DNA from: Desulfosudis oleivorans Hxd3
GTDB taxonomy: Bacteria; Desulfobacterota; Desulfobacteria; Desulfobacterales; Desulfosudaceae
Assembly (NCBI RefSeq): GCF_000018405.1
Contig: NC_009943.1
Location: 1,615,001 to 1,679,000 of the forward strand
Direction of reading: 5' to 3'
Length of the DNA stretch: 64,000 nt
In this document: piece by piece, positions 11,158 to 33,116 of the stretch
How the letters are laid out: each line of letters starts with the position of its first letter
Numbering within the stretch: position 1 is the first letter of the stretch
Made by a program: the position numbers and the translations under genes
The notes under the pieces: model-generated
What the model saw: the letters and a program-made list of their open reading frames with translations, nothing else
The model's database searches: none
What the model was told of the DNA's origin: nothing

Positions 11158-13767
11158 TTATGCCTGCGTTTTTTTCGCCATGGCCGCGTCCATTTTTTCT
11201 CCCAGGGTGCGCAGGTGGGCCGCCATCTGCCCGGCGGTCTGATACCGTTTGGCCGGGTCCTTTTCCAGGGCCTTGTTGAGAATGGCCGTCAGGGGCTTGG
11301 GAATCCTGGGGTTGATGGTTCTGGGGTCCGGATGGGGCGAATTGAGTATCTTGTGCATCAGGGCCGCCGGGCTGCTTCCCTTGAACGGCACCGTTCCCGT
11401 GAGCAGCTGGAAGGTCATCACGCCCAGAGAGAAGATGTCGCTGCGGCCGTCCACCTTCTTGCCGGAGATCTGTTCCGGCGACATGTAGTAGGGGGTACCC
11501 TTGACAATGCCGGTCTTGGTCTGGGACGAAGCAGTGATACGGGCGATGCCGAAGTCGGTGATCTTGACCTTGCCGTTTTTCAGCAGCATCACGTTGGCCG
11601 GTTTGATGTCCCGATGCACAATGCCCTGCCTGTGGGCATAATCCAGTCCCTCGGCGATGTCCGCGATATAGCCGATCAGCCGCCGCATGGGGATCAGGCT
11701 CTCTTTTTTCTGAAACTTTTCCAGGCTGTCGCCTTCCAGGTACTCCATGGCGATGTAGGCCAGGTCCTGTTCGTCGCCGGCGTCGTAGATGGTCACGATA
11801 TTGGGGTGGGAGAGGGTGCCCGCGCTTTCGGCTTCGCGAAAGAACTTCTTTTTCATCTCCGCGGCCTCTTCCTCGTCAAACTCGTCGGAGAACCGGACCG
11901 TTTTGATGGCCGTGGTGCGGTTGATACGGGGGTCCTGGCCCAGGTAGACCACGCCCATGGCGCCCTTGCCCAGCTGTTTGAGAATTTCGTAGCGCCCCAG
12001 GGTGGGCCGTATGGACGGGTCGGTGCTCACCATGCCGTCGCCGGCGCCGCCCCCGCCCAGAAACCCGGCGCCGAACACCATGGTTTCACTGGCCACCAGC
12101 AGTTTTTTCTTGCGCTCCACGATGTCCTTGAACTTGTTGTCGTACTCTTCAATGTACCCATAGACCGCCGCCGCCTTGTTGAGCTGTCGCTTGCGTTCAT
12201 AGTCCAGGGCCAGGTTGTAGAGCAGGTCCTTCATCTGGTCGTCCATCGGTACTTTGCGGAACTTGTCAAAGGCCATGTCCAGCATGCCCTGGGACTGGAA
12301 GGAGATGCCCAGCATGCGGTTGGTCTCCGCCGACTCGCCTTCCACCTTTTCCTTGCCCGCCTCGGTGAGAAAATAGCGGATCGACACGATGCCGGTGTAG
12401 CCGATGACCAGCAGCAGTACCGGGTAGATCACGTCCAGCCAGACCCCTCGGGAAAGAAAGGCCCAGGCAAATCCGCCCAGCAGCAGGGCCAGCAGCACGA
12501 AAAAAAGCCCGCCGGAGATGGCCGCCTTCAACCGGGGCAGCACCAGGGTGATCAACAGGCCAAGGAATAGCACTGCGGCCAGTTCTATCAGCCGGGTGCC
12601 GGGAAACTGCCGGATAAACTGCTGATTGAGCACCGACCACAGCACATGGGCGGTAAAGTCGCCAAAGGTGGTGGACGGTGCCACCGGTGTGCTCAGGGGC
12701 GTGGCGAGGCCCTTGGCCGACAGAGAGACCAGCACGATTTTGTTGGTAAAGACCCGCAGCGGGATTTTGTCGTTGAGCACGTCAAAAAAGGAGTAATGGC
12801 GAAAGGCGTCCGGTGCCGTGTGAAAACCGATGAGCAGTTCCGAATAGGGGGTAACCGGGATCTCGATCTTTTTGAATGAGACCGACATGCCGATATCCGC
12901 GCCAATGTTGTTCGGGGATACGCCGGCGTACCGGGCTGCCAGCACCAGTGCGTAGGAGGGGACAAACAGGCCCCTGTATTCGTAGAGCATCCGCTCTCTT
13001 CGATAGGTGCCGTCATGGTCCGGGGCCACGTTGATGTGGCCCATGCCGGCCGCGGCCCGGCGGAATACCGGAATGGGCAGAACGGCTTCGGTGGCCTGTG
13101 GGCAGGCCGCTCCCGGCGGAATGCGGACATTGCCGATGGCCTGGTCTTTAAGTGTCTCTTCCGCTTCCTCCGGCTGCCCGCTGTCCGGCACCAGGGTGTC
13201 TTTAAAAAAGATGGGCAGCACCACCCGGCCCGACCGGGTCAGGGAGGCGGCCAGAATCGAGTCCCGGTCCAGCCGTTTTCTGGCCAGGTCCAGTTCCTCC
13301 AGAAACCCGGACTGCACCTGGTCGAGGGTCTCCTGAAGGGGCGGCCCGGCGTTTCTTGCCGGTTGCGGGGCCGCTGTTGCCACCTCCTGCAGGGGCGGCA
13401 GAAAATTCTCGCGGAACCGGGTCTCCAGGAAATCGATTTCCATCAGCCCGGCATTCTCTTCGGGCTCGCTGTAGATAATGTTAAGCCCGATCACCGACGG
13501 GTCGCCCTCGTTGATCTTGTCGATGCCCCGGGCGATCAGGGACCGGGGCCAGGGCCACCGGCCCAGCTTTTCAATGGATTCATCGTCGATGTCGACGATC
13601 ACGATGGTATCGGAGGGGTCGGGCCGGCCCTTGACCTTCATCACGGTGTCGTAAAGCTTGAGCCCCAGGGTATCGAAGAATTCCACCCGGACAAGGGTGA
13701 TGAAAAGAAAGGCGAGTGTCAGCAGCAGGCCGAATATAAGCGTCGGATGTTTTTTTATAAAATTCAT
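11158..13767 (-). CDS. CHASE2-domain membrane Ser/Thr protein kinase
   Basis: 869 aa. An N-terminal membrane anchor (about 12-29) precedes a CHASE2-type extracytoplasmic sensor (about 35-390), then three close membrane helices (about 395-470), a helical linker with TPR-like character, and a C-terminal Hanks-type kinase domain (about 590-855). Kinase motifs: glycine loop LGKGAMGVVYLG, AIKTV lysine, catalytic loop HRDIKPANV, DFGIA, and activation segment GTPYYMSPEQ. The sensor sits outside and the kinase inside. It is the first gene of a four-gene minus-strand set (kinase, phosphatase, sensor kinase, regulator), linking eukaryotic-type and two-component signalling. Confidence 0.95.
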   Translation of the reverse strand: MNFIKKHPTLIFGLLLTLAFLFITLVRVEFFDTLGLKLYDTVMKVKGRPDPSDTIVIVDIDDESIEKLGRWPWPRSLIARGIDKINEGDPSVIGLNIIYSEPEENAGLMEIDFLETRFRENFLPPLQEVATAAPQPARNAGPPLQETLDQVQSGFLEELDLARKRLDRDSILAASLTRSGRVVLPIFFKDTLVPDSGQPEEAEETLKDQAIGNVRIPPGAACPQATEAVLPIPVFRRAAAGMGHINVAPDHDGTYRRERMLYEYRGLFVPSYALVLAARYAGVSPNNIGADIGMSVSFKKIEIPVTPYSELLIGFHTAPDAFRHYSFFDVLNDKIPLRVFTNKIVLVSLSAKGLATPLSTPVAPSTTFGDFTAHVLWSVLNQQFIRQFPGTRLIELAAVLFLGLLITLVLPRLKAAISGGLFFVLLALLLGGFAWAFLSRGVWLDVIYPVLLLVIGYTGIVSIRYFLTEAGKEKVEGESAETNRMLGISFQSQGMLDMAFDKFRKVPMDDQMKDLLYNLALDYERKRQLNKAAAVYGYIEEYDNKFKDIVERKKKLLVASETMVFGAGFLGGGGAGDGMVSTDPSIRPTLGRYEILKQLGKGAMGVVYLGQDPRINRTTAIKTVRFSDEFDEEEAAEMKKKFFREAESAGTLSHPNIVTIYDAGDEQDLAYIAMEYLEGDSLEKFQKKESLIPMRRLIGYIADIAEGLDYAHRQGIVHRDIKPANVMLLKNGKVKITDFGIARITASSQTKTGIVKGTPYYMSPEQISGKKVDGRSDIFSLGVMTFQLLTGTVPFKGSSPAALMHKILNSPHPDPRTINPRIPKPLTAILNKALEKDPAKRYQTAGQMAAHLRTLGEKMDAAMAKKTQA

Positions 13768-14066
13768 TCAGACCCGCGTTTGCATCCATGGTTAAAGTTG
13801 CCGAAGTATAAGCAAATTGCCCGGACAGTGTCAATGAAAAACACAGATCGCCGGGCACCGCTGGTTGTGGGGTTCCATTACGAAGGGACAGGGCTCTCAA
13901 GGACGGCTGCCCGCATCTGGCAAGGTTCTTTTTCCAAACGCAATCGGGCTGATGAAACCGCTGCTTTGATCCCCATGTCGATAACGATTGGGATTTTTCA
14001 GCGGATATGGCATATTCTACAGTGCGGCACCGGTGTGGGGCCAATGGTCATGAAGGAGACCAATTA
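13768..14066. other. Divergent intergenic region
   Basis: About 300 bases between the divergent CHASE2 kinase and the transglutaminase-like gene. No convincing gene, terminator or strong promoter match was seen by eye. It presumably holds both promoters. Confidence 0.5.
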
Positions 14067-15413
14067 ATGATAAGACGGAATGGGCGGACAGGGAGTGGGC
14101 GTTGCCGCATGGCGGCTGTGTATGCCGTGGCGGCGGTGCTGCTGTTTCTGGCCGGGCCGGTTTACGCCGGCGACATTCGGCCGGTCTGCCTGGCCATGGA
14201 TATCTTCACCCCGCTGGAGCGGACCTTTTTTGAAGACCTGGCCGACGGCGGATTGAGCGGGTATGACGATTACGACGCGTTTCTGATCGCTTCGGGCATC
14301 GTGGACCCCCGCGCGTTTTCCCGGTACCGGCCACGAATACGGGCCATTCGCAGCCGTGCCCTGGCCGGCGTGGACCGGAACGCGGCCCCCTACGACCGGG
14401 GAAAAACCCTGCTGTTCTGGCTCCATGATAATGTGCTGCGGACCTATTCAGAAACCTCCAATCTGGCCGGCGACCTGCTGGACAAGGGAGCGTTCAACTG
14501 CCTCTCGTCCACCATTCTGTATTGCCTGCTGGCAAAAGACCTGGGCCTGTCCGTGTCCGGCGTGCTGGCGCCGGGCCACACCTTCTGCCTTCTGGCCGAC
14601 GGGGACCGGCAAATCGTGGTGGAAACCACCAACCGGTACGGGTTTGAGCCGGGCCGGGTGGAAGAAGAAGCCATTGAGGGCGGGGTCCGCCAGGTGACGG
14701 TGCCGGAGACGGTCTACGAGACGACAAAGACTGTGCCGCTTTACGGCCTGATGGCCCTGCTTTATGTCAACACCCTGGATATGTCCACGCTGGCGGTGGG
14801 CCAGGGGGAGACCGGCTGCCTGCCCCGGTTTGCCAAGGTCTGTCTTTTTGACCCGGAAAACGGTCTGTTTGCCGACAATCTGGCCGCCTGCCTGAACAAC
14901 CTGGCGGTGTCGGCCCTGGGGCAGGAACGGCTGGAACCGGCCTATCTCCTTATTCAGCAGGGCAAGGCCCTGGGCAGAGCCCCTTTTGACGATCTTGAAG
15001 TGCAGTACTACAACCAGATGGCCGAACAGCAGGCAGGTTCCGGGGATTTTAACGGTGCTGTTCAGACCCTGTGGACTGCCTTGCAGCTTTATCCCGAAAA
15101 CCCCGTGCTGGACAACAATATCCTTTATTATTATGGGTTGTGGGCCGACACCTTTCGGACCCGGTCCGACACCGGCGGCGTTGTCCGGGTGTTTCTGGCG
15201 GCCCGGCAGATGCTGCCCGGCAGCGCCGCCGTTTCAGAGGGCCTGAAGGCCGCCTTTTACAACCACGCGGTGGACGCCTACAACCGGCAGGACTTTGACG
15301 CGGCCCGGTCCATCTGCCAGGAGGCCCTGGGGCTTTTCCCGGGAGAAGGGGCGTTTCTGGAGATTCTGAATGCCATTCCGCAAGACCCGCCGGCCTGGCA
15401 GTGGGGGCGGTAA
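14067..15413 (+). CDS. Exported transglutaminase-like protein with TPR-like tail
   Basis: 448 aa with a signal peptide (basic start, hydrophobic AAVLLFLAGPVYAG). Residues about 95-230 resemble a transglutaminase-like fold: a Cys in KGAFNCLSSTILY, a His in APGHTFCLL and an acidic residue in VVETTNRYG are positioned as a possible Cys-His-Glu triad. The C-terminal half is helical with TPR-like repeats. The start ATG 14067 has GGAG 9 bases upstream. It is probably periplasmic or outer-membrane associated. Substrate unknown. Confidence 0.7.
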   Translation: MIRRNGRTGSGRCRMAAVYAVAAVLLFLAGPVYAGDIRPVCLAMDIFTPLERTFFEDLADGGLSGYDDYDAFLIASGIVDPRAFSRYRPRIRAIRSRALAGVDRNAAPYDRGKTLLFWLHDNVLRTYSETSNLAGDLLDKGAFNCLSSTILYCLLAKDLGLSVSGVLAPGHTFCLLADGDRQIVVETTNRYGFEPGRVEEEAIEGGVRQVTVPETVYETTKTVPLYGLMALLYVNTLDMSTLAVGQGETGCLPRFAKVCLFDPENGLFADNLAACLNNLAVSALGQERLEPAYLLIQQGKALGRAPFDDLEVQYYNQMAEQQAGSGDFNGAVQTLWTALQLYPENPVLDNNILYYYGLWADTFRTRSDTGGVVRVFLAARQMLPGSAAVSEGLKAAFYNHAVDAYNRQDFDAARSICQEALGLFPGEGAFLEILNAIPQDPPAWQWGR

Positions 15414-15418
15414 CCGGC

Positions 15419-16858
15419 TCAGCGCCAGCGATGAATCGTGACAAAGAGGATCAGGCCGAATATCTCCAGCCGGCCCACCAGCATATCGGCCGTCAATATC
15501 CATTTTACCAGGTCGGGTAGATGGCTGTAGTTCCCCATGGATCCAACGGTTCCAAACCCCGGCCCCACGTTCCCCATGGCGGCGGCCGCGCCTGAGAATG
15601 CAGTCATGATATCCACTCCGAACCCGGTAATCGCAAGGGTGGAGACCAGCAGGACCCCCAGGTAGATCAGGATATAGGTCAGGGCGGTTTCCACCACCTC
15701 GTCATCTACGGCAGCCTGGTTGACCTTGACCACCACTACCGACTTGGGGTGACGCAGCCGCACCAGGCGGCGGGCCGCCGCCTTCCAGAGAAGAACGATC
15801 CGGTCCGCCTTGATGCCCCCGGATGTGGACCCGGAACAGGCACACTGCAAGGTGAAAAACAGGATGGCCAGCTGGGCGAACGGGGGCCACACGCTGCTGT
15901 CGGCATTGGCAAACCCGGTGGAGGTGCCGATGGAAACCACCTGGAAGGCGGCGTAGCGTAAGGCGTCGACCCACTGTCCATAGACGGGGCCGTGGATGTT
16001 GATGGTAACCAGCACCACACCCACCAGGATGGCGATCATGTAGTACCGGAAAACCGTGGATTGAAAAAGGTCTTTGGGGTTGCCGGTCACCGCCTGATAG
16101 AGCAGGCCGAAATGGACGCCGGACAGCACCATGAACAGAATGATCGTTGTCTCCATTCCCGGGCTGGCAAAATGGGCGATGCTGGCATTTTTTGTGGAAA
16201 ACCCGCCGGTGGCAATGGTGGAAAAGGCGTGGGTTACGGCGTCAAACAGGCTCATGCCTTCAATCATCAGCAGAAGGGTTTCCGCGGCGGTGAGCCCGAT
16301 ATAGACGTAGAGCAGTATGGTCAGGGTCTTTTTGGTACGGTAGTGAAAGCTCTCCTTGACCAGAGGCGACACTTCGCTGCGGTAAAGGACCATGGAGGCG
16401 GCCCCCATGGAGGGTATCACCGCCAGGACAAAGATGATGATGCCCACACCGCCCATCCAGTGGGTGGCGGCCCGCCAGAACAGCAGGCCCGGCGCCAGAC
16501 CCTCGACATTGGCAAGAATGGTGGCGCCGGTGGTGGTGAACCCGGACACGCTTTCAAACCATGCGTTGGTAAAGGTAAATCCGCCGCCCCACAGCAGGTA
16601 GGGCAATGTGCCTACCAGGCACGACGCCAGCCAGCTGCACACCACGATAAAAAGCCCTTCCCGGTTGGAGATGTCCGTGGTGGCGGGCACAAACAACAGG
16701 GGAAAGAGCCCGAAAAGGGCGCAGACAACGGTGGAAAACAGCAGCGGGGAAAGGGCGCTGTCGCCGCCGGCCAGGGAGAAAAGCGCCGATATCAGCAGAA
16801 AGGTGGCATTGAACAGCAGCACAAAACCGACATATCGCAGAATAACCTGGGCTCTCAT
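15419..16858 (-). CDS. TrkH/KtrB-type potassium uptake channel subunit
   Basis: 479 aa, polytopic. Four pore-loop repeats carry filter-like segments: SGFTTTGATI, ATGGFSTKNAS, GTSTGFANAD and VGPGFGTVGS, each with the filter glycine. These define the TrkH/KtrB/HKT superfamily, which moves K+ across the inner membrane. No TrkA/KtrA regulator is nearby. The gene starts inside the stop of a HAMP-domain protein (ATGA overlap at 16855-16858), so the two are translationally coupled. Confidence 0.93.
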   Translation of the reverse strand: MRAQVILRYVGFVLLFNATFLLISALFSLAGGDSALSPLLFSTVVCALFGLFPLLFVPATTDISNREGLFIVVCSWLASCLVGTLPYLLWGGGFTFTNAWFESVSGFTTTGATILANVEGLAPGLLFWRAATHWMGGVGIIIFVLAVIPSMGAASMVLYRSEVSPLVKESFHYRTKKTLTILLYVYIGLTAAETLLLMIEGMSLFDAVTHAFSTIATGGFSTKNASIAHFASPGMETTIILFMVLSGVHFGLLYQAVTGNPKDLFQSTVFRYYMIAILVGVVLVTINIHGPVYGQWVDALRYAAFQVVSIGTSTGFANADSSVWPPFAQLAILFFTLQCACSGSTSGGIKADRIVLLWKAAARRLVRLRHPKSVVVVKVNQAAVDDEVVETALTYILIYLGVLLVSTLAITGFGVDIMTAFSGAAAAMGNVGPGFGTVGSMGNYSHLPDLVKWILTADMLVGRLEIFGLILFVTIHRWR

Positions 16859-17619
16859 GATGCTGTGCCGTTTTTATGGGGGTGAATGGTCAATTCCCGG
16901 ATCGCCTCGGTGAGCTTGAACAATTCGTCCCGGCCTTCGGCCCGTACCGCCAGGGGCTCGCCGTGATACATGAAGGCCTTGACCGAGTCGGTGAGCCGGC
17001 GAATGGGGGCGATGACATACAGGTTGATGAAAAAATTAAAAATCAGGGCAAAGGCCAGGGCCGATGCAATGGCGATGATGCCGGGCATGATGGCCCGACG
17101 CGCCCGGTCCTGAAGAGCGGACGCGGTTTCGTACAGGGTGGTGTCATTCAGCGTCATCAACTGGTTGGCCGCCGTCTTGGTTTTCAGAAAGGCGGGGTGG
17201 GCCCGGTCGAAATACCAGGTGATATTGCCCTGGCGGTGGGTGTCCACAATAGGCCGGCGCCACAGGGTTTGAAATTCCGCGTATGCTGTTTCAATGGCAT
17301 CCACCACCTCGGCTTCACCGGTGATGGTGATGTTGCTTTTTGCCGTGCCAAAGGCCTGCGCAAAGGCCCTGTCCCCTTCCTCCAGGGTGGCGCGGCCGGC
17401 CTCCCAGTTGCCCGACATCAGCATCAGCACGCCGCTGTCCTGCCGTTCCAGGGCCTCGATCATCTCTTTTGCCGCGACAATGCTCCTGTAGTTTTCTTCC
17501 AGCAGGCCCTTGACCGAATGGCCGATCCGGTTGAGTTCGTAGATGGATGCGGCTCCGGCGGCGGACAACATCACCGCCAGGATCAGGAACCCGGAAAGGA
17601 TCTTGAATCGAAGGTTCAT
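16855..17619 (-). CDS. Membrane four-helix-bundle/HAMP protein without effector domain
   Basis: 254 aa. TM1 at about 8-27, a helical extracytoplasmic domain of about 150 residues similar to the 4HB sensor of chemoreceptors, TM2 at about 178-200, then a HAMP segment (APIRRLTDSVKAF) and a 20-residue tail. It stops where a kinase, cyclase or methyl-accepting domain would be expected. Because it is coupled to the K+ channel gene it may act as a sensory partner of the channel (inference). Alternatively it is the remnant of a larger receptor. Confidence 0.8.
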   Translation of the reverse strand: MNLRFKILSGFLILAVMLSAAGAASIYELNRIGHSVKGLLEENYRSIVAAKEMIEALERQDSGVLMLMSGNWEAGRATLEEGDRAFAQAFGTAKSNITITGEAEVVDAIETAYAEFQTLWRRPIVDTHRQGNITWYFDRAHPAFLKTKTAANQLMTLNDTTLYETASALQDRARRAIMPGIIAIASALAFALIFNFFINLYVIAPIRRLTDSVKAFMYHGEPLAVRAEGRDELFKLTEAIRELTIHPHKNGTAS

Positions 17620-17818
17620 GGCATGCTCCTGGTGTTGGTTTCATGGTTTGGGAAAAGGGGCAAAGAGAGGAACGGGCCGGCGCCCCGCTGTTAAAACTGG
17701 CAGACTATAAACTTCGGTACTCGGGATGTCAAGCTAACGCTTTCTTTCCAGTTCAGCCTGGTTCAGCGGCCGGAAATTCTCAGTTTCCCGGCCCTGACAT
17801 TGCATGAAATATTCGGCC

Positions 17819-18253
17819 CTACATGGACTCATAATTGACAATCTCGGCGTATTCGTTTGTATCCGGATCAAAGGTGATCAGAACAAACCAGTCAACCTCG
17901 TCCCGGTGGTCCGGATCATCCGGGTAAAGCCAGCAGGCGATCACCTGAAACAGCTCCCGGCCGGTCTTTGAAATCCATTTATTGAATTGTCCTCTTTCCG
18001 GCTCATAGCCGGTTGCCGCCGGGTAACAGGAAACATCATAAACCAGGTATGCTTCGCCGCACAACGGGCAGACACACGTTACTTCCGGGTATGCTGACAG
18101 AAAAATCTCAAACAGGCTGTTGTCGCAGTGGCACACGATCTGTGAAAACGTGCTGTCCAGCATGTAGGGGCGGTACTTGCCCTCTATGGTCACAAAATCC
18201 TTGACCGGCCTGATCTTACCGTCATAATGACTGGGGTGTCTGTTCATGATCAT
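17819..18253 (-). CDS. Hypothetical Cys-rich (zinc-ribbon-like) protein
   Basis: 144-aa soluble protein. Two cysteine groups, IVCHCDN and TCVCPLCGEAY, could bind a metal as a zinc ribbon. The rest is acidic and aromatic-rich with no recognised family. It diverges from the small membrane protein gene to its right. Function unknown. Confidence 0.65.
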   Translation of the reverse strand: MIMNRHPSHYDGKIRPVKDFVTIEGKYRPYMLDSTFSQIVCHCDNSLFEIFLSAYPEVTCVCPLCGEAYLVYDVSCYPAATGYEPERGQFNKWISKTGRELFQVIACWLYPDDPDHRDEVDWFVLITFDPDTNEYAEIVNYESM

Positions 18254-18382
18254 CCGTTATTGACAAGTCGTTGCATTCTTCACCCGGAATTCTGGTTTCT
18301 GATGGGTATAGAAAGCATAATATTCAAAAAAGAGCAATTATTTTTGAGTGTTGACCATTGTGGGGTAAACAGGGAGCCTGTC

Positions 18383-18847
18383 ATGAAAGAAAAAATCGCC
18401 TTTGTTATTTATCTGGGAAACGCACTGGCATGGATCGGGTTCGGCCTCGTTTACATGGCCTGTCCCACCATTATGCCGTATCACCGGCAGGCCATCGGCA
18501 TGGACTTTGAAGAACTGAGCGCCGGTGTCCAGGTGCTGCTGCAGGCGCTGATCAAGATGACGGCAGCCGGCTTTTTTGTGGCCGGTGTTGCCTGCCTGAT
18601 CCTTCTGCTGATCCCGTTTCGAAACGGGGCACAATGGGCCCACCGGTCTGTTCCACTGCTCGGTATTATCTGGAACGGCATCTCTCTCTGGGTGACCACC
18701 ACAGTGGCCATCAAGGCCCATGCCGCCACCCCCTGGCCGGCAGCCGCCGCAGGCATCATCCTGCTGGCCATCGCATATTGTCTTTCTCCCGGCACGGCGC
18801 AAATCGACGGGTTAAAGAAGGCCTCGTTTTGGAAAACAGAAAAATAA
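18383..18847 (+). CDS. Small four-helix membrane protein, unknown
   Basis: 154 aa with about four hydrophobic helices (residues 5-25, 58-78, 88-112, 118-135). ATG 18383 is chosen because GGAG lies 7 bases upstream; the open frame extends back to 18227 but that part is poorly protein-like. Its last 19 bases overlap the YcaO gene, suggesting co-expression. No family recognised. Confidence 0.7.
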   Translation: MKEKIAFVIYLGNALAWIGFGLVYMACPTIMPYHRQAIGMDFEELSAGVQVLLQALIKMTAAGFFVAGVACLILLLIPFRNGAQWAHRSVPLLGIIWNGISLWVTTTVAIKAHAATPWPAAAAGIILLAIAYCLSPGTAQIDGLKKASFWKTEK

Positions 18848-20541
18848 CCTATACCTTAACCAGGGAATCGACCCGGCTGCAGACCGGCTTTTTTGTGACC
18901 CGGCCGAATGAGGCGCTGGCCCTGGAAGAGTGCCTCGCCCTGCTCAGGTTGCGTCCCATGGATGATTTTTTGCACCAGCACGTGTTGACCCTGGTCGGCA
19001 GACTGCCAAAGGACAGGCTGCGGCAGTTCCTCAACCGATGTAAGGCAGGCAGTGATCCGGTATGCCGGGCCCTTGCGGCGGAATATCTTTTTTTAACCAG
19101 AGGGCGGGAGCATCTGGAAAAACGGTTTACCGCGGAAGATATTCGCGAACTGTGCCGGCATACGCCCTTGATCTATCTGCGCTCTTTTTTGGAGCCGGAC
19201 CAGGCGCTTCATGGCCGGTGGATCGCTTTTTTTCGAAATAACATGCAGGCGCATCAGCCGCTGGCATCACCGGATCAAACAGACCTGCCCCTGTTGACGT
19301 TCGACAAGGCCCCGGCGCGGACAGCGGCCACTCTTGCCGGACTGGCGCAAGCCATGACCGGAAAAGGGGTGGCAGCCACACCGGCGGTCTCTCCCGAACA
19401 GACAGCCGACACGGCCGAAGACCGCCTGAAAAAGGCCGGGGTTGAACTGGGCCGGCTCATGCGCCACGAGTCCAGCCTGAGCCCCATCGGCCTGTTGCGG
19501 AGCTGGCGATTTGCCACCCATATTGAAAACAGGCGCAACCAATTGTCTCTTTCCGGTGAGCAGACCAGCTACGGACGGGGGCTGACCCTGAACGCGGCCC
19601 GGGCCTCGCTGATGATGGAGATCGTGGAGCGCTGCTCGGCCTTTGCCTCGGTCTCGGCCAACGGGCTGGAAAATTTTCGGTATTCATATCCCTTGCGTTA
19701 CGCGCCCTTCAGTGAACTGGCGGCCGGCGAGGCGGCGGTCATGAATCCGGCGGACCTGGCCCTGGAGGTGTCATACCCGGACCAGGGCCTGCACTGGGTG
19801 CAGGGTGAAACCCCGGCACCGGGGGGCGACGGCGACCCCCGCCGGTCCATATGGATACCGGCCCAATGTCTGTTTCTGTTCTGCAACCTGGATGAGCCGT
19901 CCCTGTTTTCCGGGCTTGGCTCCACCGGCCTGGCATCGGGCAACACCCTGGCCCAGGCAAAAGTCTCGGCCCTGTTGGAGATTGTCGAACGCCACCAGGC
20001 CGCCACCGTGCCCTATGACCGGTCCACCTGTTTTCATCTGGTATCCCGGGAGCCCCGGATGGCCGGGCTTCTTGAGGCTTACCACCAGGCCGGCGTGAAC
20101 CTCTGGTTTCAGGACATTACCCCGAAAAACGGGATTCCCTGCTGCCGCTGCTTTGTGAAGGAAAAAGGCGGGCAAATCCATACCGGCGCGGCGGCCCACT
20201 TGGATGCCCGGCGAGCCATTGTCTCCGCCATCACGGAGACCACCTGCCCGTTTCCCAAATCACCGCCCACGCAACCCGTGCCGCCCGGCCTGACCCTGGT
20301 GGGGTATGAGAACCTGCCCGACTATTCCACGGGTGACGCAGCCTCGGACCTGGCGCTGCTGGAGACGCTGTTTTTACAAAACAGCTTTCAACCCTGCTAC
20401 GTTGACCTGACCCGCGCGGACATCGGCCTGCCGGTGGTCAAGGCCGTTGTGCCGGGCATGGAGGTGCTGGGGGACTTTGATGACTACTCTCGGGTTCATC
20501 CGGAGCTGTATCAGAATTACCTGTCCGTGTATGATTCTTAA
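18829..20541 (+). CDS. Stand-alone YcaO-domain protein
   Basis: 570 aa. The C-terminal two thirds match the YcaO ATP-dependent cyclodehydratase fold: GRGLTLNAARASLMMEIVER, GSTGLASGNTLAQA and SALLEIVERHQA hold the ATP and Mg2+ binding Glu/Arg residues. The N-terminal 170 residues are a helical extension not typical of RiPP YcaOs. TTG 18829 is taken as start (AAGAAGG 7 bases upstream, overlapping the preceding gene by 19 bases). No TfuA, E1-like partner, or precursor peptide is adjacent. YcaOs activate backbone amides; the target here is unknown. Confidence 0.85.
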   Translation: MENRKITYTLTRESTRLQTGFFVTRPNEALALEECLALLRLRPMDDFLHQHVLTLVGRLPKDRLRQFLNRCKAGSDPVCRALAAEYLFLTRGREHLEKRFTAEDIRELCRHTPLIYLRSFLEPDQALHGRWIAFFRNNMQAHQPLASPDQTDLPLLTFDKAPARTAATLAGLAQAMTGKGVAATPAVSPEQTADTAEDRLKKAGVELGRLMRHESSLSPIGLLRSWRFATHIENRRNQLSLSGEQTSYGRGLTLNAARASLMMEIVERCSAFASVSANGLENFRYSYPLRYAPFSELAAGEAAVMNPADLALEVSYPDQGLHWVQGETPAPGGDGDPRRSIWIPAQCLFLFCNLDEPSLFSGLGSTGLASGNTLAQAKVSALLEIVERHQAATVPYDRSTCFHLVSREPRMAGLLEAYHQAGVNLWFQDITPKNGIPCCRCFVKEKGGQIHTGAAAHLDARRAIVSAITETTCPFPKSPPTQPVPPGLTLVGYENLPDYSTGDAASDLALLETLFLQNSFQPCYVDLTRADIGLPVVKAVVPGMEVLGDFDDYSRVHPELYQNYLSVYDS

Positions 20542-20551
20542 AACAGACCGT

Positions 20552-20569
20552 CTCCCTGTTGGCAGGGAG
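20552..20569. terminator. Hairpin between convergent genes
   Basis: Perfect 7-bp stem CTCCCTG/CAGGGAG with a 4-base loop in the 29-base gap between the convergent YcaO and ABC-F genes. There is no long T-run, so a bidirectional terminator is only likely, not certain. Confidence 0.45.
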
Positions 20570-20570
20570 T

Positions 20571-22403
20571 TCAGGCATCCTGAATGCCGAGTTCCCGGCT
20601 CTTTTTCTCCAGGTCGGTGGTCAGGGCTTCCAGCTCCTCGTAGAGCCGGCTCACCTTTTCCGAGGTGTCGTGATAGGCCTTGGAGAGCCGGGCAATGGCT
20701 TCCCGGTCCCCGGTATGGGAGGCGGCCACCATATCGGCGTTCAGACGTCCAATGGCGGCCTCGTCTTTTTCAATTGTTTTTTCCACGGCGGCCATGCGTT
20801 TTCTGATGGGGGTGATGACGGCGGCTCGCTGTGCCAGGAGATCAGCCTTCTTTTTGCGAAGATCTTTTTTGGACAGGCCCTCTTCATTTGGCCGTTCCGG
20901 TTTTCGTCCCCCGGATCGTGGTGTCTCCTCCTTCCATCCCACCCGGTCTAGAAAATCCTGGTAGGTGCCTTCAAACAGCTCGGCCCCGCCGGCCTGGAAG
21001 ACGATGAGCCGGTTGGCCAGGGAGTGGAGAAACATCTCGTTGTGGGTGACGATGATCACCGCGCCGGGAAATTCTTCAACCGCTTCCAGAAAGGCCTCGC
21101 ACGACTCCATGTCCAGGTGGTTGGTGGGCTCGTCCAGCAGCAGCAGGTTGGAGGGGGCCGCCAGGATTCTGCCCAAAAGGACCCGGCTTTTTTCACCACC
21201 GGAAAGCACGCCGATGGGCTTTAGGGCATGGTCGCCTTCGAACATCATCAGGCCGCAGATGTTTCTGGCCTGCTGCCGCTTGCATCCCGCGTTCATGATC
21301 TCCTCTTCCACGGTGAGCGCGTCGTTGAGGTCCATCTTGTTGGTCTGGGCAAAATACCCGGTTTTTGTGGACGGGTGAGCGGTGATTCGGCCCCGGGCGG
21401 ATGCCAGCTCCCCGGCGATCAGCCGCAGCAGCGTGGTCTTGCCCCGTCCGTTTTTGCCGATCACGCAGATGCGATCGGTTTTATTGACGGCAAAACTCAG
21501 GCCGTCGACCAGGGGCTGCCCCCCGGCATAGGCAAAAGAAAGGCTTTCCGCCTGAAGCAGGACCTTTGCGGGCGTGGGCGCGTGGTTGAAGGAAAAGTCC
21601 AGGTTCTTGAGCTTTTCTAACGGATCCTTGACCTCCTGTTTTTCCAGTGCCTTAATACGGGACTGAACCAGTCCGGCAAGCCTTGCCTTGGCCCGGAACC
21701 GGGAGATGAACAGCTCAGCCTCCTTGCGTTTTTTGGCCTCATTGACCCGGGTCTTTTCGTGAATCTCCTCTTCTTTGAAAATCTGGTCGTAGTATTTGTC
21801 CGTGGCGCCGGACATTTTGCGAACGCGCTTGCGGTGAATGCCCAGGGTGTGGGTGATCACGCCGTCCATGAAGGACCGGTCATGGGTGATCAGCAGGACC
21901 TCGCCGGACCACTGGCGCAGGAAACCCGAGAGCCAGCGGATGGAGACGATGTCAAGGTAGTTGGTGGGCTCGTCGAGCAGCAGCAGGTCCGGCTCGGAGC
22001 AGATCACCTTGGCCAGGTTGAGCCGCACCTGAAAGCCGCCGGAAAAGTCGGCCGGATGCCGGTCCATGTCGGTTTTGGAAAATCCCAGGCCGGACAGGAT
22101 TTTTTCGGCCCGCCAGGTGTCGTGGATAAACTGGCGGGGCAGGCCGGTACAGGCCTCTTCGATGATCGTGGGTTTTGAAAAATGGATATGCTGAGTCACA
22201 TAGCCGACGCGATATCCCTTGGGCGCGGCCACGGCGCCGCTGTCCGGCGCCTCACTGCCGGCGATGATGCGCAGCAGGGTGGTTTTGCCGTGGCCGTTTC
22301 TGCCCACCAGCCCCACCCGTTCTCCTTTGTTGATATCAAAGCTGATATCGTCGAAAAGGATTTCGGCACCGAATGATTTTGAAATATTGACCGCTTTTAT
22401 CAT
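20571..22403 (-). CDS. ABC-F family ATPase (ribosome-associated type)
   Basis: 610 aa with two ABC nucleotide-binding domains and no membrane segments. Walker A motifs are GRNGHGKTT and GKNGRGKTT; the LSGGEKSRVLLGR signature is in domain 2 and DFSGGFQVRLNLAK is the equivalent in domain 1. A charged inter-domain linker (about 225-280) and a coiled-coil C-terminal tail (about 510-600) match the ABC-F/Uup/YheS class that acts on ribosomes or branched DNA. The frame extends to 22472, but ATG 22403 begins at the normal first strand of the domain (MIKAVNISKSFG). Confidence 0.93.
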   Translation of the reverse strand: MIKAVNISKSFGAEILFDDISFDINKGERVGLVGRNGHGKTTLLRIIAGSEAPDSGAVAAPKGYRVGYVTQHIHFSKPTIIEEACTGLPRQFIHDTWRAEKILSGLGFSKTDMDRHPADFSGGFQVRLNLAKVICSEPDLLLLDEPTNYLDIVSIRWLSGFLRQWSGEVLLITHDRSFMDGVITHTLGIHRKRVRKMSGATDKYYDQIFKEEEIHEKTRVNEAKKRKEAELFISRFRAKARLAGLVQSRIKALEKQEVKDPLEKLKNLDFSFNHAPTPAKVLLQAESLSFAYAGGQPLVDGLSFAVNKTDRICVIGKNGRGKTTLLRLIAGELASARGRITAHPSTKTGYFAQTNKMDLNDALTVEEEIMNAGCKRQQARNICGLMMFEGDHALKPIGVLSGGEKSRVLLGRILAAPSNLLLLDEPTNHLDMESCEAFLEAVEEFPGAVIIVTHNEMFLHSLANRLIVFQAGGAELFEGTYQDFLDRVGWKEETPRSGGRKPERPNEEGLSKKDLRKKKADLLAQRAAVITPIRKRMAAVEKTIEKDEAAIGRLNADMVAASHTGDREAIARLSKAYHDTSEKVSRLYEELEALTTDLEKKSRELGIQDA

Positions 22404-22581
22404 GATGTCCGGTTGTTTGCGCGTGTTGTCGTGACCTGGCCGTATCGGGCCAAACGACCATACCACCGTCACCGGTTAATGTAAATATGGCGCGGAAGGC
22501 TTGCCAAATGGCGCCGTTGTGCTACCATGGGCCAAAACGCAGGGCACATCCGGCGTGTAACATCGATCCTGCCGAGGGCGC

Positions 22582-24546
22582 ATGACCGATTCGAACGACA
22601 AAAAGACGGCCGGCACCACAGTTGAGAGCCTGACCGCCTATTTTTTGAAGCTTTACAAGATTCACCTGGGCCTTTCCCAGGACTCCCCGTCGGAAATTGT
22701 TCCCGTGGGCCCCTATCCACCCAACCCCAAACTCTTCACCTATGACCTGCGGGTAGAGCAGCGCGGGGAGTGGGTCTCCCGCCGCCTCACCCTGGGTCGT
22801 ATCGCCGAAGACACCGGCAGCAAGAGCAGCTGTTTTTTCGCGATCTTCGACAAGCAGCTGGTGATCAAGGTGCCGCCTTCGCCGATCAAGGATTTTGAGA
22901 CCTACCTTGCTCATATCGAACGGGACAAGCGGATCGCCCGTATCCTTGCGCCCCGGCCCTGCCTGATTCCCGGCGTATCGGCCATCCTCTCCCGGGTGCA
23001 CAAGTTTCCCAGGGACCACGAAATCCAGGGGGAACAGCGGGAAAACATTTATTATGAGTGGCTGCGTTACAGCACCGAAAACCAGGTGTTTTTGAAGATT
23101 GACGGTAAGTTCGCCTTTTTTATGGATCTGGCCCAGCACATGTTTCTGCCCGAGGTGGTGGCCCTGTTCCACGGCCAGGACAAGAAGATGCAACAGGAGA
23201 TCACCGCTGACGTATCGATTTTAGACGCCATGGACCGGTTTGAGGGCCGGTACGGTATGGACCAGATGGGCCTGGGAATTGAGTTAAAGGAGGTGCTGGA
23301 CGGATTTGAGAGCCGGGTCCGCCGCGCTTTGGGCCAGTCCGCGGCCGCGTTGTCGGGCCGGCATGACTTGCCCCGGCACTGGTTCTTCCGCCATATCGCC
23401 GGCATGCCGCCGGTCAAAACCACGGAAGAGTTGGCCACCCCGGAGCAGGAGAAACTGACGGCGCTGCTGGCCGCGACAGTGGAAGAGAACCGGCAGGTGA
23501 TCAATGATTACCTTGAGATGGTCCGCAACCACCTGCGGCGGTCATCCGCCTCCAAGCTGCTCCTTTACATGGCCGCTGTCACGGCAAACCTTCTGGAAGC
23601 CTTGGCATGGCTGAAGGAAAAAGGCGTGGCCATTCGGGACATCAAGCCGGACAACCTGCTGGTGGCCGGTGACCAGGCCCGGTTTCCCGTGTTTCTGGCC
23701 GACCCGGCCCAGTTTGCCATCGGGCTGATCGATTTTGAGACTGCCGTGGTTTTTAAACCCGAAGCCGGGGAGCCGGTGGCCCAGCCCATGCTGGGCGGAA
23801 CCCCGCCCTATGCCACACCCCTTAACCTTTTTGCCAACAAGCTGATTGCGGTTGTTTATAAGGACCTGGACCGCGCCCTGTACCTTCAGGACTGGTATGC
23901 CATGGCAGGCCTGATATACGGCATTCTCACCGGCTCCCAGCTGTTTGCGAAAACCGCCCGGGTGTTTCTGGCCCTGCCGAAGAAGATCGCCGAGGCAAGC
24001 AAGGCCGGCCGGTCCGGCGCCCATATCGTGGCCCAGGTAAGCCGGTTTTTTTGGGAAAGCGCCCTGGCCGAGTTTGAAGCCGGCATCGTGGCCCGCCGGG
24101 CGGACCTGAGTGCCATCGGCGTGCCCCTGTCAGAGTCGGTGGCAGCGATGTTTGTTCACGAGCTTGAAATGGAAAACAAGCGGGCCGATGCTATGATCGA
24201 CGACCTGATTCAGCGGCAGGTATTGTTTAAAAACAGCACCAACCAGGAGGTGCTTTACAGCAGCAGCGCGGCCCAGGTGGAGCGTTTCGCGGCCAAAGCC
24301 GGCGCCGTGCCGGGTGTGGATCAGGCATCTTTGGGCATGCTGGAATCGATTTGCCGGCTCAAGGGAAGAATGGAGGCAAACCAGGCGCTTCAGGAGCGGT
24401 TGAAACAGATCAATCCGGTTCTTTCAGTACTTGAGGTGCTGCACCTGCTTTTTTATCGGGCCGCCGTCTTCATGTACCCGGAAACGATTATACGGGACCG
24501 GGCCGCGGGAACATCCGGGGCCCCGGCAGCGGAGAAGACGTCATGA
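22582..24546 (+). CDS. Atypical Ser/Thr protein kinase-like protein
   Basis: 654 aa, soluble. Kinase hallmarks are spread widely: a possible VAIK-type lysine in LVIKVPPSP (about 95), a catalytic loop AIRDIKPDNLLVAGD (about 350), and GGTPPYATPLNLF as activation-segment end. The metal-binding DFG reads DFE (LIDFETAVVF). A long helical insert separates the N-lobe lysine from the catalytic loop. The C-terminal 200 residues are helical and unknown. It overlaps the following reductase by ATGA. It may be active with altered metal binding, or a pseudokinase scaffold. Confidence 0.75.
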   Translation: MTDSNDKKTAGTTVESLTAYFLKLYKIHLGLSQDSPSEIVPVGPYPPNPKLFTYDLRVEQRGEWVSRRLTLGRIAEDTGSKSSCFFAIFDKQLVIKVPPSPIKDFETYLAHIERDKRIARILAPRPCLIPGVSAILSRVHKFPRDHEIQGEQRENIYYEWLRYSTENQVFLKIDGKFAFFMDLAQHMFLPEVVALFHGQDKKMQQEITADVSILDAMDRFEGRYGMDQMGLGIELKEVLDGFESRVRRALGQSAAALSGRHDLPRHWFFRHIAGMPPVKTTEELATPEQEKLTALLAATVEENRQVINDYLEMVRNHLRRSSASKLLLYMAAVTANLLEALAWLKEKGVAIRDIKPDNLLVAGDQARFPVFLADPAQFAIGLIDFETAVVFKPEAGEPVAQPMLGGTPPYATPLNLFANKLIAVVYKDLDRALYLQDWYAMAGLIYGILTGSQLFAKTARVFLALPKKIAEASKAGRSGAHIVAQVSRFFWESALAEFEAGIVARRADLSAIGVPLSESVAAMFVHELEMENKRADAMIDDLIQRQVLFKNSTNQEVLYSSSAAQVERFAAKAGAVPGVDQASLGMLESICRLKGRMEANQALQERLKQINPVLSVLEVLHLLFYRAAVFMYPETIIRDRAAGTSGAPAAEKTS

Positions 24547-25331
24547 CCGCTTCTGCTTATTCAAAACCCGTTGTGATCGTGGGCATCGGCCAGATGGGCG
24601 GTGTGTTTGCCAGGGCTTTTCTGGGCGCCGGCCGCCCGGTCTACCCGGTGACGGCGCAAATGGCCATGGCCGACGCGGCCGCAGCCTGCCCCAACCCTGA
24701 TTTTGTACTGCTGGCCGTACCCGAAAACGTGCTTTCCCAAACCCTGGCCCGGGTGCCGGAACCGTGGCAAAACCGGCTGGGCCTGCTGCAGAACGAGCTG
24801 CTGCCCGGTGTGTGGGAAACGGCGGGCATCGCCAATCCCACGTCCATGGCCGTGTGGTTTGAAAAGAAAAAGGGCAGGGGGGTGCATGTTTTTCAGCCCA
24901 CCCGGGTCTACGGCCCGCACGCCGGGCTTGTAAAAACAGCGCTGAATACCGTTGATATTCCCTGCGACGTGCTGCCGGATAGCGCGGCCCTGACCACCGA
25001 ACTGATCAAAAAGAACCTCTACGTGCTCACCATCAATATCGCCGGGCTTGTCACAGGCGGCACCACAGGTGAGTTATGGGCCAGGCACAGAGATGTTGCT
25101 CTGGCCGTGGCAGACGATGTGCTGACGGTGCTGGCCCATGTTTCAGGCCGGGCCGTGGACCGGAACGCCATGAAAACTTTTCTGGGGGATATTCTGACAC
25201 GGGTGCCGGACCACACCTGCCGGGGCCGGGTGGCCGAAGACCGGCTGGACCGGGTCTTGGCCATGGCCCGCCAAAACAGCCTTGAAACCCCGGCCCTGGT
25301 TGAGGTGTCAGAGCAGATTGTACGGTCCTGA
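24543..25331 (+). CDS. NAD(P)-dependent oxidoreductase, 6-phosphogluconate dehydrogenase/ketopantoate reductase-like
   Basis: 262 aa. The N-terminal Rossmann fold shows VVIVGIGQMGGVFARAFL (GxGxxG class) followed by LLAVPEN at the cofactor edge. The C-terminal half is helical, as in beta-hydroxyacid or F420:NADP type reductases. It is coupled to the kinase-like gene by an ATGA overlap. The substrate cannot be read from the sequence. Confidence 0.65.
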   Translation: MTASAYSKPVVIVGIGQMGGVFARAFLGAGRPVYPVTAQMAMADAAAACPNPDFVLLAVPENVLSQTLARVPEPWQNRLGLLQNELLPGVWETAGIANPTSMAVWFEKKKGRGVHVFQPTRVYGPHAGLVKTALNTVDIPCDVLPDSAALTTELIKKNLYVLTINIAGLVTGGTTGELWARHRDVALAVADDVLTVLAHVSGRAVDRNAMKTFLGDILTRVPDHTCRGRVAEDRLDRVLAMARQNSLETPALVEVSEQIVRS

Positions 25332-25361
25332 TCAGTTTTTCATGCCGGGCACGAACCAGCG

Positions 25362-26468
25362 TCAGTCGGCAACTACTACCCTGTTCTTCCCCTGGTGCTT
25401 GCCGTCATAAAGGGCCTGGTCGGCCCGCTTGATGCATTTTTCAACCGTATCGTCCCCGCCGTTGAACACGCTCAGGCCAAAGGTCATGGTAACGGCCATC
25501 TTCTCTTTTTTGAAGGTGAAATCCGTGTTTTGGATCTTTTCGCGAATGCGCCCGGCAACCGTGTAAGCTCCTTCCCGGTCGCTCTCCACCAGCAGGATGA
25601 GAAACTCCTCACCGCCCCACCGGGAGGGACAGTCTATGCCACGGACCTGGTTTTTCATCAGTCCTGCCACCCGTTTGAGCACATCATCGCCGCAGTCATG
25701 GCCATGGGTGTCGTTTAACTGTTTGAAGTTGTCGATGTCGCCGAGAATCAGGGCAAAGGGTCTGCCGGACCGGGCCTGCCGCTCTCGCTCGTTTTCCATC
25801 CGTTCGGAGATGTCCCTGCGGTTGGCCAGGCCGGTGAGGGGATCGCGCTTGGACGCGCTTTCAAACCGGTCCTTTTCCCGCTGAATATACCGGATCAGCA
25901 TTTGATGGGAGGTTTCGTAATAGTAAACGGAGAGGGTGAGGACCACGTAGATGACGCTGTAGCGGGCCACGATATGGGTGGAGTAGGGCGGTGAAGGAAG
26001 AACGGTTTCGGGCAGGGTCATCAGGATCAGGCTCAGGCAGAAAAAAAAGAGGCTCGCAATCATCCCCCTCCGGTCTCCCAGAATGGAAAAGAGAACGGGC
26101 GGCAGCATGAAGGACCAGAAGAAATAGGATATTTCGGTTCGGCCGATAATGGTCGTGGTGCTGCACAGCACGAAAACGCCGAAGCCGATCCCCAGGTAGA
26201 TGGAATCGCCGTTTTCGTGTCGTCGAAGATACCGCAGTCCGTACAGGGCCACGACAAAACCCAGGCTGTCCATGGCTACCACCTGGTAGTGGCCGGAGAA
26301 AAGATGGTAAACGGAGAAGGTGGAGGTGATCAGGATACTCACCAGCACCACAAAAACGGCTGACACCCGCTTGCGTCGCTCGTCCGGCGCCAGCAGCGAC
26401 GGGCTGCCGATTCGCAGAAGGGTACGGATGAAAAACGAGTCGGTGAGGTTGTAGTCTTTTCCCGTCAT
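25362..26468 (-). CDS. Membrane diguanylate cyclase (GGDEF)
   Basis: 368 aa. About six membrane helices in residues 35-190 form an MHYT/7TM-like sensor region, then a coiled coil and a GGDEF domain (about 205-368). The active site is GGEEF, so it should make c-di-GMP. An inhibitory I-site RxxD (RGID) sits five residues before GGEEF, indicating product feedback. The DPLTGLANRR motif is present. No EAL domain. Confidence 0.93.
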   Translation of the reverse strand: MTGKDYNLTDSFFIRTLLRIGSPSLLAPDERRKRVSAVFVVLVSILITSTFSVYHLFSGHYQVVAMDSLGFVVALYGLRYLRRHENGDSIYLGIGFGVFVLCSTTTIIGRTEISYFFWSFMLPPVLFSILGDRRGMIASLFFFCLSLILMTLPETVLPSPPYSTHIVARYSVIYVVLTLSVYYYETSHQMLIRYIQREKDRFESASKRDPLTGLANRRDISERMENERERQARSGRPFALILGDIDNFKQLNDTHGHDCGDDVLKRVAGLMKNQVRGIDCPSRWGGEEFLILLVESDREGAYTVAGRIREKIQNTDFTFKKEKMAVTMTFGLSVFNGGDDTVEKCIKRADQALYDGKHQGKNRVVVAD

Positions 26469-26603
26469 CAGGCATGCCGCTTGGGTGTTGGCCCGTTCCG
26501 CTCATGAAATATCCGGGTAAGTTATTACAGCATAGCCCATCTGGCGGGTTTTTGCAATCAGTAAACTTGAAAACGCAACATTTTTAAACAGTTAGCCCCC
26601 ACA

Positions 26604-26969
26604 CTATTTTTTAAAAAACATGTAGACGGCCAGCCCCACAAGAATCACGGCAAAGATTTTTCGAAACATATCAGTGGAGACATGTTCCACCAGCCGGGCC
26701 CCTATCTGGGCGCCGAGAACGCCGCCGATGCCCAGCAGAATGCCGGCCCGGTAGTCCACGTTGGCAAGCTTGTTGTGGGCAAAGAGGGCGGAGATGGAGA
26801 TCACCATGATGGCCACAAACGAAGTGCCCACCGCCTTCTGGGCCGCGTAGCCCGCAAACAGCAGGAACGGTATCATCAGAAACCCGCCGCCCAGGCCGGA
26901 AAAAGAGGCGCCGATGCCCACCAGAACGCCGAACAGGGCCATGCCGGCCATGCCGAGATAAGCAGTCAT
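26604..26969 (-). CDS. Half-size TauE/SafE (TSUP) family membrane protein
   Basis: 121 aa with about four helices. The motif GLGGGFLMIPFLLFAGYAAQKAVGTS is the classic start of a TSUP sulfite/sulfonate exporter, but usual members are about 250 aa with two such repeats. Only the first repeat is present and it ends normally with no visible second-half remnant, so it may function as a homodimer. Adjacent to another small membrane protein on the same strand. Confidence 0.8.
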   Translation of the reverse strand: MTAYLGMAGMALFGVLVGIGASFSGLGGGFLMIPFLLFAGYAAQKAVGTSFVAIMVISISALFAHNKLANVDYRAGILLGIGGVLGAQIGARLVEHVSTDMFRKIFAVILVGLAVYMFFKK

Positions 26970-27014
26970 ATAATCGTGCCCTTTCTTTTAATCGGGAGAT
27001 GAACCAATTCAGGA

Positions 27015-32135: not shown

Positions 32136-32165
32136 TAGCTAAGAAACAAGTGCAACAGCGGCTCC

Positions 32166-32224
32166 GCCTAACGAGCCGGCATAAGGCGCGGCGGCTTTTT
32201 GCCGTCGTCTTAATGCCGTTGCTG
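32166..32224 (-). other. attC recombination site (after higA)
   Basis: On the minus strand the site ends in a perfect GTTAGGC (R', 32172-32166). The arms GGCATTAAGACGACGGC and GCCGCCGCGCCTTATGCC pair imperfectly around an AAAAA loop. The R'' side (CAGCAAC region) is degenerate. It closely resembles the site at 33811-33872. HigA ends inside it. Confidence 0.75.
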
Positions 32225-32521: not shown

Positions 32522-32533
32522 AATAGGTTCTCC

Positions 32534-32812: not shown

Positions 32813-32819
32813 GTATCAC

Positions 32820-32848
32820 ATAATAACGCGTGGCGTGATTAACGTCAA
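32820..32848 (-). promoter_or_regulatory. Sigma70-type promoter of higBA
   Basis: On the minus strand TTGACG and TATTAT are 17 bases apart, and the toxin start follows 7 bases after the -10. A palindromic ATGTGATACATGATTATATCAT-like stretch overlaps the start and could be the HigA operator. The cassette therefore carries its own promoter. Confidence 0.7.
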
Positions 32849-32867
32849 GCATAATTTATTGTAGCCC

Positions 32868-33069: not shown

Positions 33070-33116
33070 TCTGCAATGATGCGCAAGAAATAGCCGTGCG
33101 AAGCGCGGCTATTTCT
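33062..33116 (-). other. Degenerate attC-like end with strong hairpin
   Basis: A stem AAGAAATAGCCG/CGGCTATTTCTT (33085-33116) overlaps the stop of the upstream gene and is followed by the GTTCGCC core. No RYYYAAC (R'') is found, so this is either a replaced or worn attC. It could also stop transcription. Confidence 0.45.

Follow-up and report, generated by a model that had tools for sequence, protein, structure and literature searches.

A YcaO gene with an N-terminal helical domain in Desulfosudis oleivorans

We examined a 64,000-nucleotide (nt) stretch of the Desulfosudis oleivorans Hxd3 genome, here called the window (positions 1,615,001-1,679,000; the genome is one contig with 3,944,167 bases), that encodes a YcaO protein on its forward strand. 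The first-pass annotation of this DNA had named the gene as a YcaO with a long N-terminal extension. The YcaO call is borne out by Pfam: in the frame readable from ATG 18634 to 20541 (+; 635 amino acids, aa), the PF02624 domain scores 154.3 bits against a cut-off of 25.7, and TIGR00702 reaches 78.1 bits, just above its cut-off of 75.65. The extension is present too, but with the start moved to TTG 18829 it comprises about 180 aa before the YcaO fold and not about 310. We place the start probably at TTG 18829 instead of ATG 18634 because agreement between orthologues begins at Y8 counted from the TTG codon (Y in 40/41 proteins) and AAAGAAGG, at 18814-18821, precedes that codon by 7 nt. Consistent with this layout, 9 of the 14 YcaO rows in our structural comparison start at residues 180-187 and two more at 201-204.

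Conservation was assessed in an alignment of 41 proteins, including the window YcaO. The glutamates and arginines of both ATP-site ExxER pairs (E264, E267, R268, E384, E387 and R388) are invariant in 41/41, as is E470. The first acidic motif aligns with HYGKG..MEAIER of MJ1094, the YcaO of Methanocaldococcus jannaschii, and the second corresponds to the ATP motif Sx6-7Ex3Qx3ExxER reported for YcaO proteins (PMC7774982). Three cysteines are also family features, with Cys401, Cys438 and Cys441 all present in 29/41 proteins. The isoelectric point of the window YcaO is 6.23; the 41 aligned proteins range over 5.0-8.7 (highest value 8.66), with a median of 5.92. The protein is apparently an intact member of a coherent, so far unnamed YcaO subfamily, and we found no description of it in the open-access literature, a scope that mostly excludes subscription papers.

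Table 1. Features of the ycaO locus (window positions; residues are numbered from TTG 18829)
Feature	Position	Strand	Evidence
ycaO gene, 570 aa	18829..20541	+	Pfam YcaO; probable start from conserved Y8, T15 and G20 in 41 aligned proteins and AAAGAAGG
N-terminal helical domain, residues 1-180, putative substrate-docking	18829..19368	+	predicted fold, pLDDT 83.1; invariant G20, P26, P43, D45
YcaO fold, residues 182-568	19372..20532	+	AlphaFold2 (AF2) pLDDT 92.5, pTM 0.93; VIA Z 25.2 to 6peu_A, 3.1 Å over 337 residues
First conserved acidic motif SYGRGL..MEIVER, residues 247-268	19567..19632	+	G249, G251, E264, E267, R268 in 41/41
ATP-binding motif STGLASGNT..LLEIVER, residues 365-388	19921..19992	+	E384, E387, R388 in 41/41
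Cys401, family-conserved	20029..20031	+	kept in 39/41
Cys438..Cys441, CxxC-like (CCRC in the window)	20140..20151	+	C438 in 39/41, C441 in 31/41
Shortened Pro-rich segment, residues 471-490	20239..20298	+	longer stretch in other YcaOs; Pfam match breaks between profile positions 227 and 278
Four-span membrane ORF, not counted in the system	18383..18847	+	predicted spans; not conserved with ycaO

Fold and profile relatives

The AF2 model of the window YcaO is confident by both its predicted local distance difference test (pLDDT) and its predicted template modelling score (pTM). We compared it with known structures by VIA, counting rows within 1 Z as tied. The closest fold is that of M. jannaschii YcaO (Z 25.2, 3.1 Å, 337 residues), followed by the cyclodehydratase LynD (Z 24.9, 3.4 Å, 350 residues) and by the YcaOs of Methanopyrus kandleri (Z 23.7, 3.2 Å, 325 residues) and Escherichia coli (Z 22.5, 3.6 Å, 312 residues). 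When the profile of the 41-protein alignment was run against the sequences in the PDB, MJ1094 was the top match (5.8e-30) and TruD the next (9.6e-18), ahead of LynD, MusD and M. kandleri YcaO; the E. coli protein was not among the matches at 0.001. The N-terminal domain has no Pfam or NCBIfam match. Folded alone, it gave a best VIA Z of 5.9 and nothing under E 0.001 in Foldseek, and no known fold among its PDB matches could be assigned with confidence, which does not prove that the fold is new.

By profile, the nearest solved relative is the YcaO that modifies methyl-coenzyme M reductase, the McrA type (TIGR03266; MJ1094, 6PE3/6PEU). Both share the YcaO fold and the two acidic motifs, and MJ1094 is at once the best profile match and a joint best fold match. 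M. jannaschii and M. kandleri carry thioglycine in McrA yet are reported to lack TfuA (PMC5589413), as do most carriers of the subfamily. The window YcaO nonetheless differs in its extra N-terminal helical domain, its conserved cysteines and its shortened segment, at which the MJ1094 alignment has an insertion of about 24 residues, and its carriers are bacteria of the dsrA type. At 96.2 bits it stays under the TIGR03266 cut-off of 365. The E. coli YcaO, which thioamidates the ribosomal protein uL16 (NF040716; 4Q84-4Q86), is partnerless like the window YcaO. It aligns structurally through residues 5-395 of 582, which places the part that it has in excess after the YcaO domain, whereas that of the window protein precedes it, and against the NF040716 cut-off of 700 the window YcaO scores 16.5 bits. 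LynD and TruD, the cyclodehydratases of thiazole/oxazole-modified microcin (TOMM) pathways, have the YcaO fold in common with the window protein, which lacks their E1-like or RiPP recognition element (RRE) family matches in its N-terminal part and their PxPxP ending.

Sulfate reducers also encode a YcaO of another architecture. DVU2210 of Desulfovibrio vulgaris is reported as a YcaO protein with a TPR domain and a molybdate phenotype (PMC7774982), and that paper and PMC10128000 concern this YcaO-TPR protein or YcaO-like domains in general. Like the window YcaO, DVU2210 is a YcaO of a sulfate reducer without a known substrate, a comparison drawn from its description; the window protein has no TPR match in Pfam and a different N-terminal domain. 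The D. oleivorans genome contains a second YcaO (G000:C1:1481362-1482279; locus L079:7778-9583, minus strand), a 602-aa frame with C-terminal TPR repeats, the architecture reported for DVU2210 (PMC7774982).

Distribution of the subfamily

We searched samples of 192 genomes from the class, 297 from the phylum and 61 from one genus, and covered the space beyond the phylum by a peptide-pattern scan and a plasmid search. Any match was found in 138 of the 192 class genomes, and those beyond the subfamily were weak and mostly to other YcaOs. Subfamily members occur in 48/192 genomes of the class (47 with E < 1e-70, and G024 as a fragment), in 20/297 of the phylum sample and in 42/61 of the genus. 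With 17 more from the phylum sample, the class and phylum samples hold 65 known carriers, a count that leaves out G128 and G180, where matches were weak or split. The peptide-pattern scan of contigs gave five loci, by record title three from Desulfovibrio/Desulfovibrionaceae, one from Desulfobacterales and one from a "Proteobacteria bacterium". Plasmid-borne relatives were rejected: the nine records found are generic YcaO matches that cover no more than 56% of the protein, at 26-29% identity. The weak matches of the class search suggest that many class genomes contain other YcaO paralogues.

Most carriers have the dissimilatory sulfite reductase gene dsrA, identified by TIGR02064. In the phylum sample dsrA is present in 20/20 carriers and in 124/277 other genomes (144/297 overall), and by genus in 14/14 carrier genera against 94/199 (Fisher's exact test, 2.5e-7 by genome and 1.6e-5 by genus, neither corrected for phylogeny). 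The subfamily marks lineages whose metabolism is of the sulfite-reducing type and would provide sulfide. In a separate observation, at least two dsrA matches occur in 11 of 61 genomes of the genus of G265, ten of them carriers of this YcaO and one (G525) not; in some of these genomes the matches are pieces of one gene.

Partner genes and precursor peptides

YcaO proteins are best known from the biosynthesis of ribosomally synthesized and post-translationally modified peptides (RiPPs). The gene had been described as standing alone, with no TfuA, E1-like or peptide precursor neighbor, and this holds for the 18 neighboring ORFs that we scanned: none has a TfuA, E1-like or RiPP domain by Pfam, nor, for eight of them, by NCBIfam. 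The searches for TfuA and E1-like partners took 62 carriers (all but G024, G087 and G152). TfuA was found in just one of them (G047, on a separate contig) and not in the D. oleivorans genome, and the SagC-type E1-like partner (TIGR03603) scored above its cut-off in 0/62, with weak matches in G195 and G260; other partner families were not searched genome-wide. Within the window YcaO itself, the N-terminal part matches neither RRE-like nor E1-like families. For YcaOs that form azolines, a PxP motif at the C-terminus has been described (PMC7136475); PxPxP occurs in 0/41 proteins within the last 25 residues, and a shorter PxP within the last 12 residues in 2/41.

To look for precursors we clustered ORFs of at least 30 aa within 6 kb of ycaO across 62 loci, keeping clusters with a median of at most 110 aa that were present in at least four loci. 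No free-standing conserved small ORF emerged. A precursor near ycaO was rejected as a candidate: in 86 of the 87 short-ORF clusters, half or more of the members sit within longer ORFs, and the 87th cluster runs opposite to ycaO in a stretch around the gene for ribosomal protein uS9 in nine related loci. A six-frame comparison of window positions 12000-27000 with seven other loci (L035 and L039-L044) gave 29 matches beyond ycaO itself. Three of them, all to L039, fall at 25371-25847 within a GGDEF gene; the others are scattered and short (9-56 codons).

The stand-alone description applies in the window; relatives do show recurring neighbors, namely tatC and dsr genes. Even so, no gene family lies within 6 kb in more than 18 of the 62 ycaO loci, and the most frequent family is that of ABC-type ATPases in general.

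Proposed activity

Our interpretation, held with moderate confidence, is that the gene encodes a probably active, partnerless YcaO of a distinct subfamily that alters the backbone of a cellular protein using ATP and sulfide. Modification of a protein is favored over that of a RiPP because there is no conserved small ORF, TfuA and E1-like partners are absent or nearly so, the PxPxP ending is missing, the carriers share one conserved subfamily, and MJ1094 is the nearest profile relative. The first-pass annotation had likewise preferred a protein backbone to a RiPP, and that preference stands, but by the curated models the window YcaO is neither of the McrA type nor of the E. coli type, and LynD is as close by fold. 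The lack of partners matches the partnerless YcaOs acting on McrA and uL16, and sulfide-dependent protein thioamidation is the activity that would fit best. In such a mechanism the YcaO domain would bind ATP and phosphorylate the oxygen of a backbone amide in a folded protein of the cell; sulfide, plentiful in carrier cells, would then attack the activated amide to give a thioamide without TfuA. In vitro, EcYcaO is reported to thioamidate uL16 only when Na2S, MgCl2 and ATP are supplied (PMC13063428). The N-terminal helical domain would probably dock the substrate, taking the role of a leader-binding domain, and Cys401, Cys438 and Cys441 could hand over sulfur, a guess from their conservation alone.

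Several observations weigh against this interpretation. The azoline former LynD ties with MJ1094 by fold (Z gap below 1), and because rows within 1 Z are tied, the fold alone cannot choose between thioamide and azoline formers. The TOMM model scores the protein as high as the McrA model does (95.1 bits, against a TIGR03604 cut-off of 219.25, vs 96.2 bits), both far below cut-off. Three structural rows (LynD twice and MusD) have their first aligned residue at 10-27, inside the N-terminal domain, so a remote relation of this domain to an E1-like part may exist. At position 380, where the published ATP motif has Gln, the window YcaO has S (S in 18, A in 8, N in 6 and Q in 3 of 41 proteins), although this Gln is not universal, MJ1094 having H there in the alignment. 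The segment after E470 is shortened and a Q found there in other YcaOs is missing; the active site may therefore differ from that of other YcaOs. Finally, dsrA co-occurrence shows no signal within the class (46/48 carriers vs 127/144 non-carriers) or within one genus (39/42 vs 18/19). Since the signal vanishes at both levels and the carriers are related, we rejected the co-occurrence as functional proof; ycaO is not needed for having dsrA.

Candidate substrates and alternative activities

If the window YcaO does thioamidate a protein, the first substrate candidates are proteins of sulfite reduction or of the ribosome. One specific possibility, unlikely on present evidence, is that the modified protein belongs to dissimilatory sulfite reduction (DsrAB, DsrC or DsrMKJOP), making the subfamily a bacterial counterpart of the McrA-modifying YcaO. 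This is suggested by gene neighborhoods. Among the 64 carriers taken into the linkage search (all but G087), 15 have ycaO linked to dsr genes: dsrA lies within 20 kb in 11, dsrB on the same contig in 3, and dsrK within 3 kb in 1 more. The near-dsrA placement, with positions read by hand, is found in 11/46 subfamily members, compared with 2 of roughly 85 among the other YcaO paralogues (p 1.8e-4). In 11/62 loci from six families, tatC lies 5-60 nt upstream of ycaO on the same strand, and beyond it there is often a class III cytochrome gene, cbiA and dsrB/dsrA; TatC and the cytochrome were confirmed by Pfam in one locus, and dsrB, dsrD, dsrM, dsrK, cbiA and tatB are presumed identities, named by recognition of the sequences and by likeness between loci. 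In G006, G025 and G136 (loci L117, L118 and L068), and as a fragment in G024 (L121), ycaO adjoins RsbRD_N-dsrM-dsrK in divergent orientation, and in G028 it lies at a contig end, 2.6 kb from dsrK.

Several findings speak against a required Dsr role, among them the missing co-occurrence signal within the class and the genus. The D. oleivorans gene, at 1.63 Mb, is unlinked to dsrA (3.21 Mb) and dsrK (0.52 Mb), and 124 of the 144 dsrA-bearing genomes of the phylum sample have no subfamily YcaO. Moreover, ycaO may be a passenger in the dsr-cbiA-cytochrome-tatBC block, because the block exists without it in 3 of 10 fetched ycaO-less dsr loci (L127, L132 and L134). In a tree of 61 proteins, in which 18 of 58 inner branches have support below 80, the tat/dsr-linked rows are spread over several groups. 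Any tat/dsr linkage requires at least 9 changes on this tree, or 6 if tat-only rows are left out, and one linkage already present in the common ancestor and lost afterwards is no less likely than repeated gain, nor more so.

Taking this substrate one step further, some Desulfobacterota could tune dissimilatory sulfite reduction through a backbone thioamide that YcaO introduces into a Dsr protein; the enzyme would be self-sufficient, with its own docking domain and a Cys401/Cys438/Cys441 sulfur relay. We regard this as a speculative and rather improbable extension. If true, it would be a bacterial parallel to the thioglycine in methyl-coenzyme M reductase, which is, besides uL16 and to the knowledge of the authors of PMC13063428, the sole other characterised thioamidated protein. 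That bacteria of the sulfate-reducing type share a conserved YcaO subfamily without partners, in some lineages next to dsr genes, points to one more protein target, in organisms on which the anaerobic sulfur cycle largely depends. Some carriers are titled Desulfovibrio, a genus whose genetics has been established in D. vulgaris (PMC7774982).

Two further gene types accompany some of these loci. A PrmA-like methyltransferase gene adjoins ycaO in G005, G122 and G184. We rejected it as a second modifier because it is not specific to ycaO: relatives occur in 188/192 class genomes (E up to 1e-12, a set that will include ordinary PrmA). PrmA-family methyltransferase genes near dsr genes were seen in several genomes (L123:7707-8516, and also in L055, L046 and L063), and by eye we take their N-terminal stretch to resemble DsrD. 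The other is a further YcaO type at L123:8533-9843 (minus strand; 436 aa, PF02624 177 bits), about 3.5 kb upstream of dsrA in a genome that also has the window's subfamily nearby; in G134, a YcaO paralogue lies about 3.6 kb from dsrA.

Returning to the activity of the enzyme, the shortened Pro-rich segment after E470 and the loss of the published-motif Gln could instead reflect another kind of amide activation (a protein amidine or azoline, or phosphoryl transfer), or a degenerate YcaO with a binding role. We think this, too, is unlikely. Decay in particular is improbable because the glutamates and arginines of the two ATP motifs are retained in all 41 proteins.

Within the thioamidation proposal, a ribosomal substrate, as in the modification of uL16 by E. 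coli YcaO, seems distinctly unlikely. In nine loci (L036-L038 and L106-L111) the uS9 gene precedes ycaO on the same strand, at a gap of 85-343 nt (eight distances), with uS9 confirmed by Pfam in L107; a 144-aa ORF upstream in eight of these loci is presumably rplM. The linkage may reflect shared ancestry because it is seen solely in related genomes: L036-L038 are titled Desulfovibrio/Desulfovibrionaceae, and L106-L111 share one genus code. That a YcaO without partners thioamidates a folded ribosomal protein is established (PMC13063428), but EcYcaO has a reported isoelectric point of 4.4, in line with a low value reported for the uL16 group, whereas the window YcaO is not acidic, and the E. coli-type model falls far short of its cut-off.

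Least probable of all is a RiPP whose precursor lies in another part of the genome or escaped notice because it is too short or divergent, a reading which the pedigree of YcaO proteins and the fold tie with LynD would allow and which the short-ORF clusters, the lack of RRE-like, E1-like and PxPxP features, and the occurrence of a single family across many genera in changing neighborhoods make very unlikely.

The overlapping membrane ORF and other features of the window

The gene had also been paired with a membrane partner. A four-span ORF does overlap ycaO, by 19 nt when ycaO starts at TTG 18829, but the partnership is not conserved: the ORF, which has no Pfam or NCBIfam family match, is absent from every other ycaO locus compared. 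Of the 95 other genomes of the order, four (G001, G004, G048 and G176) encode a homologue, and none of these four has the window's YcaO subfamily. We therefore rejected it as a conserved YcaO partner; among the loci compared it is peculiar to this genome.

Elsewhere in the window, a TauE/SafE-like ORF at 26610-26969 (minus strand) matches positions 2-109 of a 237-position profile, roughly half of its length, and is, judged from this coverage, a truncated or split gene. Two adjacent small minus-strand ORFs at 32216-32812 are a probable toxin-antitoxin pair; one is an HTH_3 regulator, and the other we take by eye to resemble a HigB-type toxin. At 32868-37005 a 232-nt direct repeat occurs five times at spacings of 659-1439 nt, with 89-93% identity to the reference copy. 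The G+C content around the repeats is low (0.45 at 32001-36000), a tRNA-Arg gene adjoins at 37912-37988, and the repeat stretch looks like a genomic island or cassette-like array.

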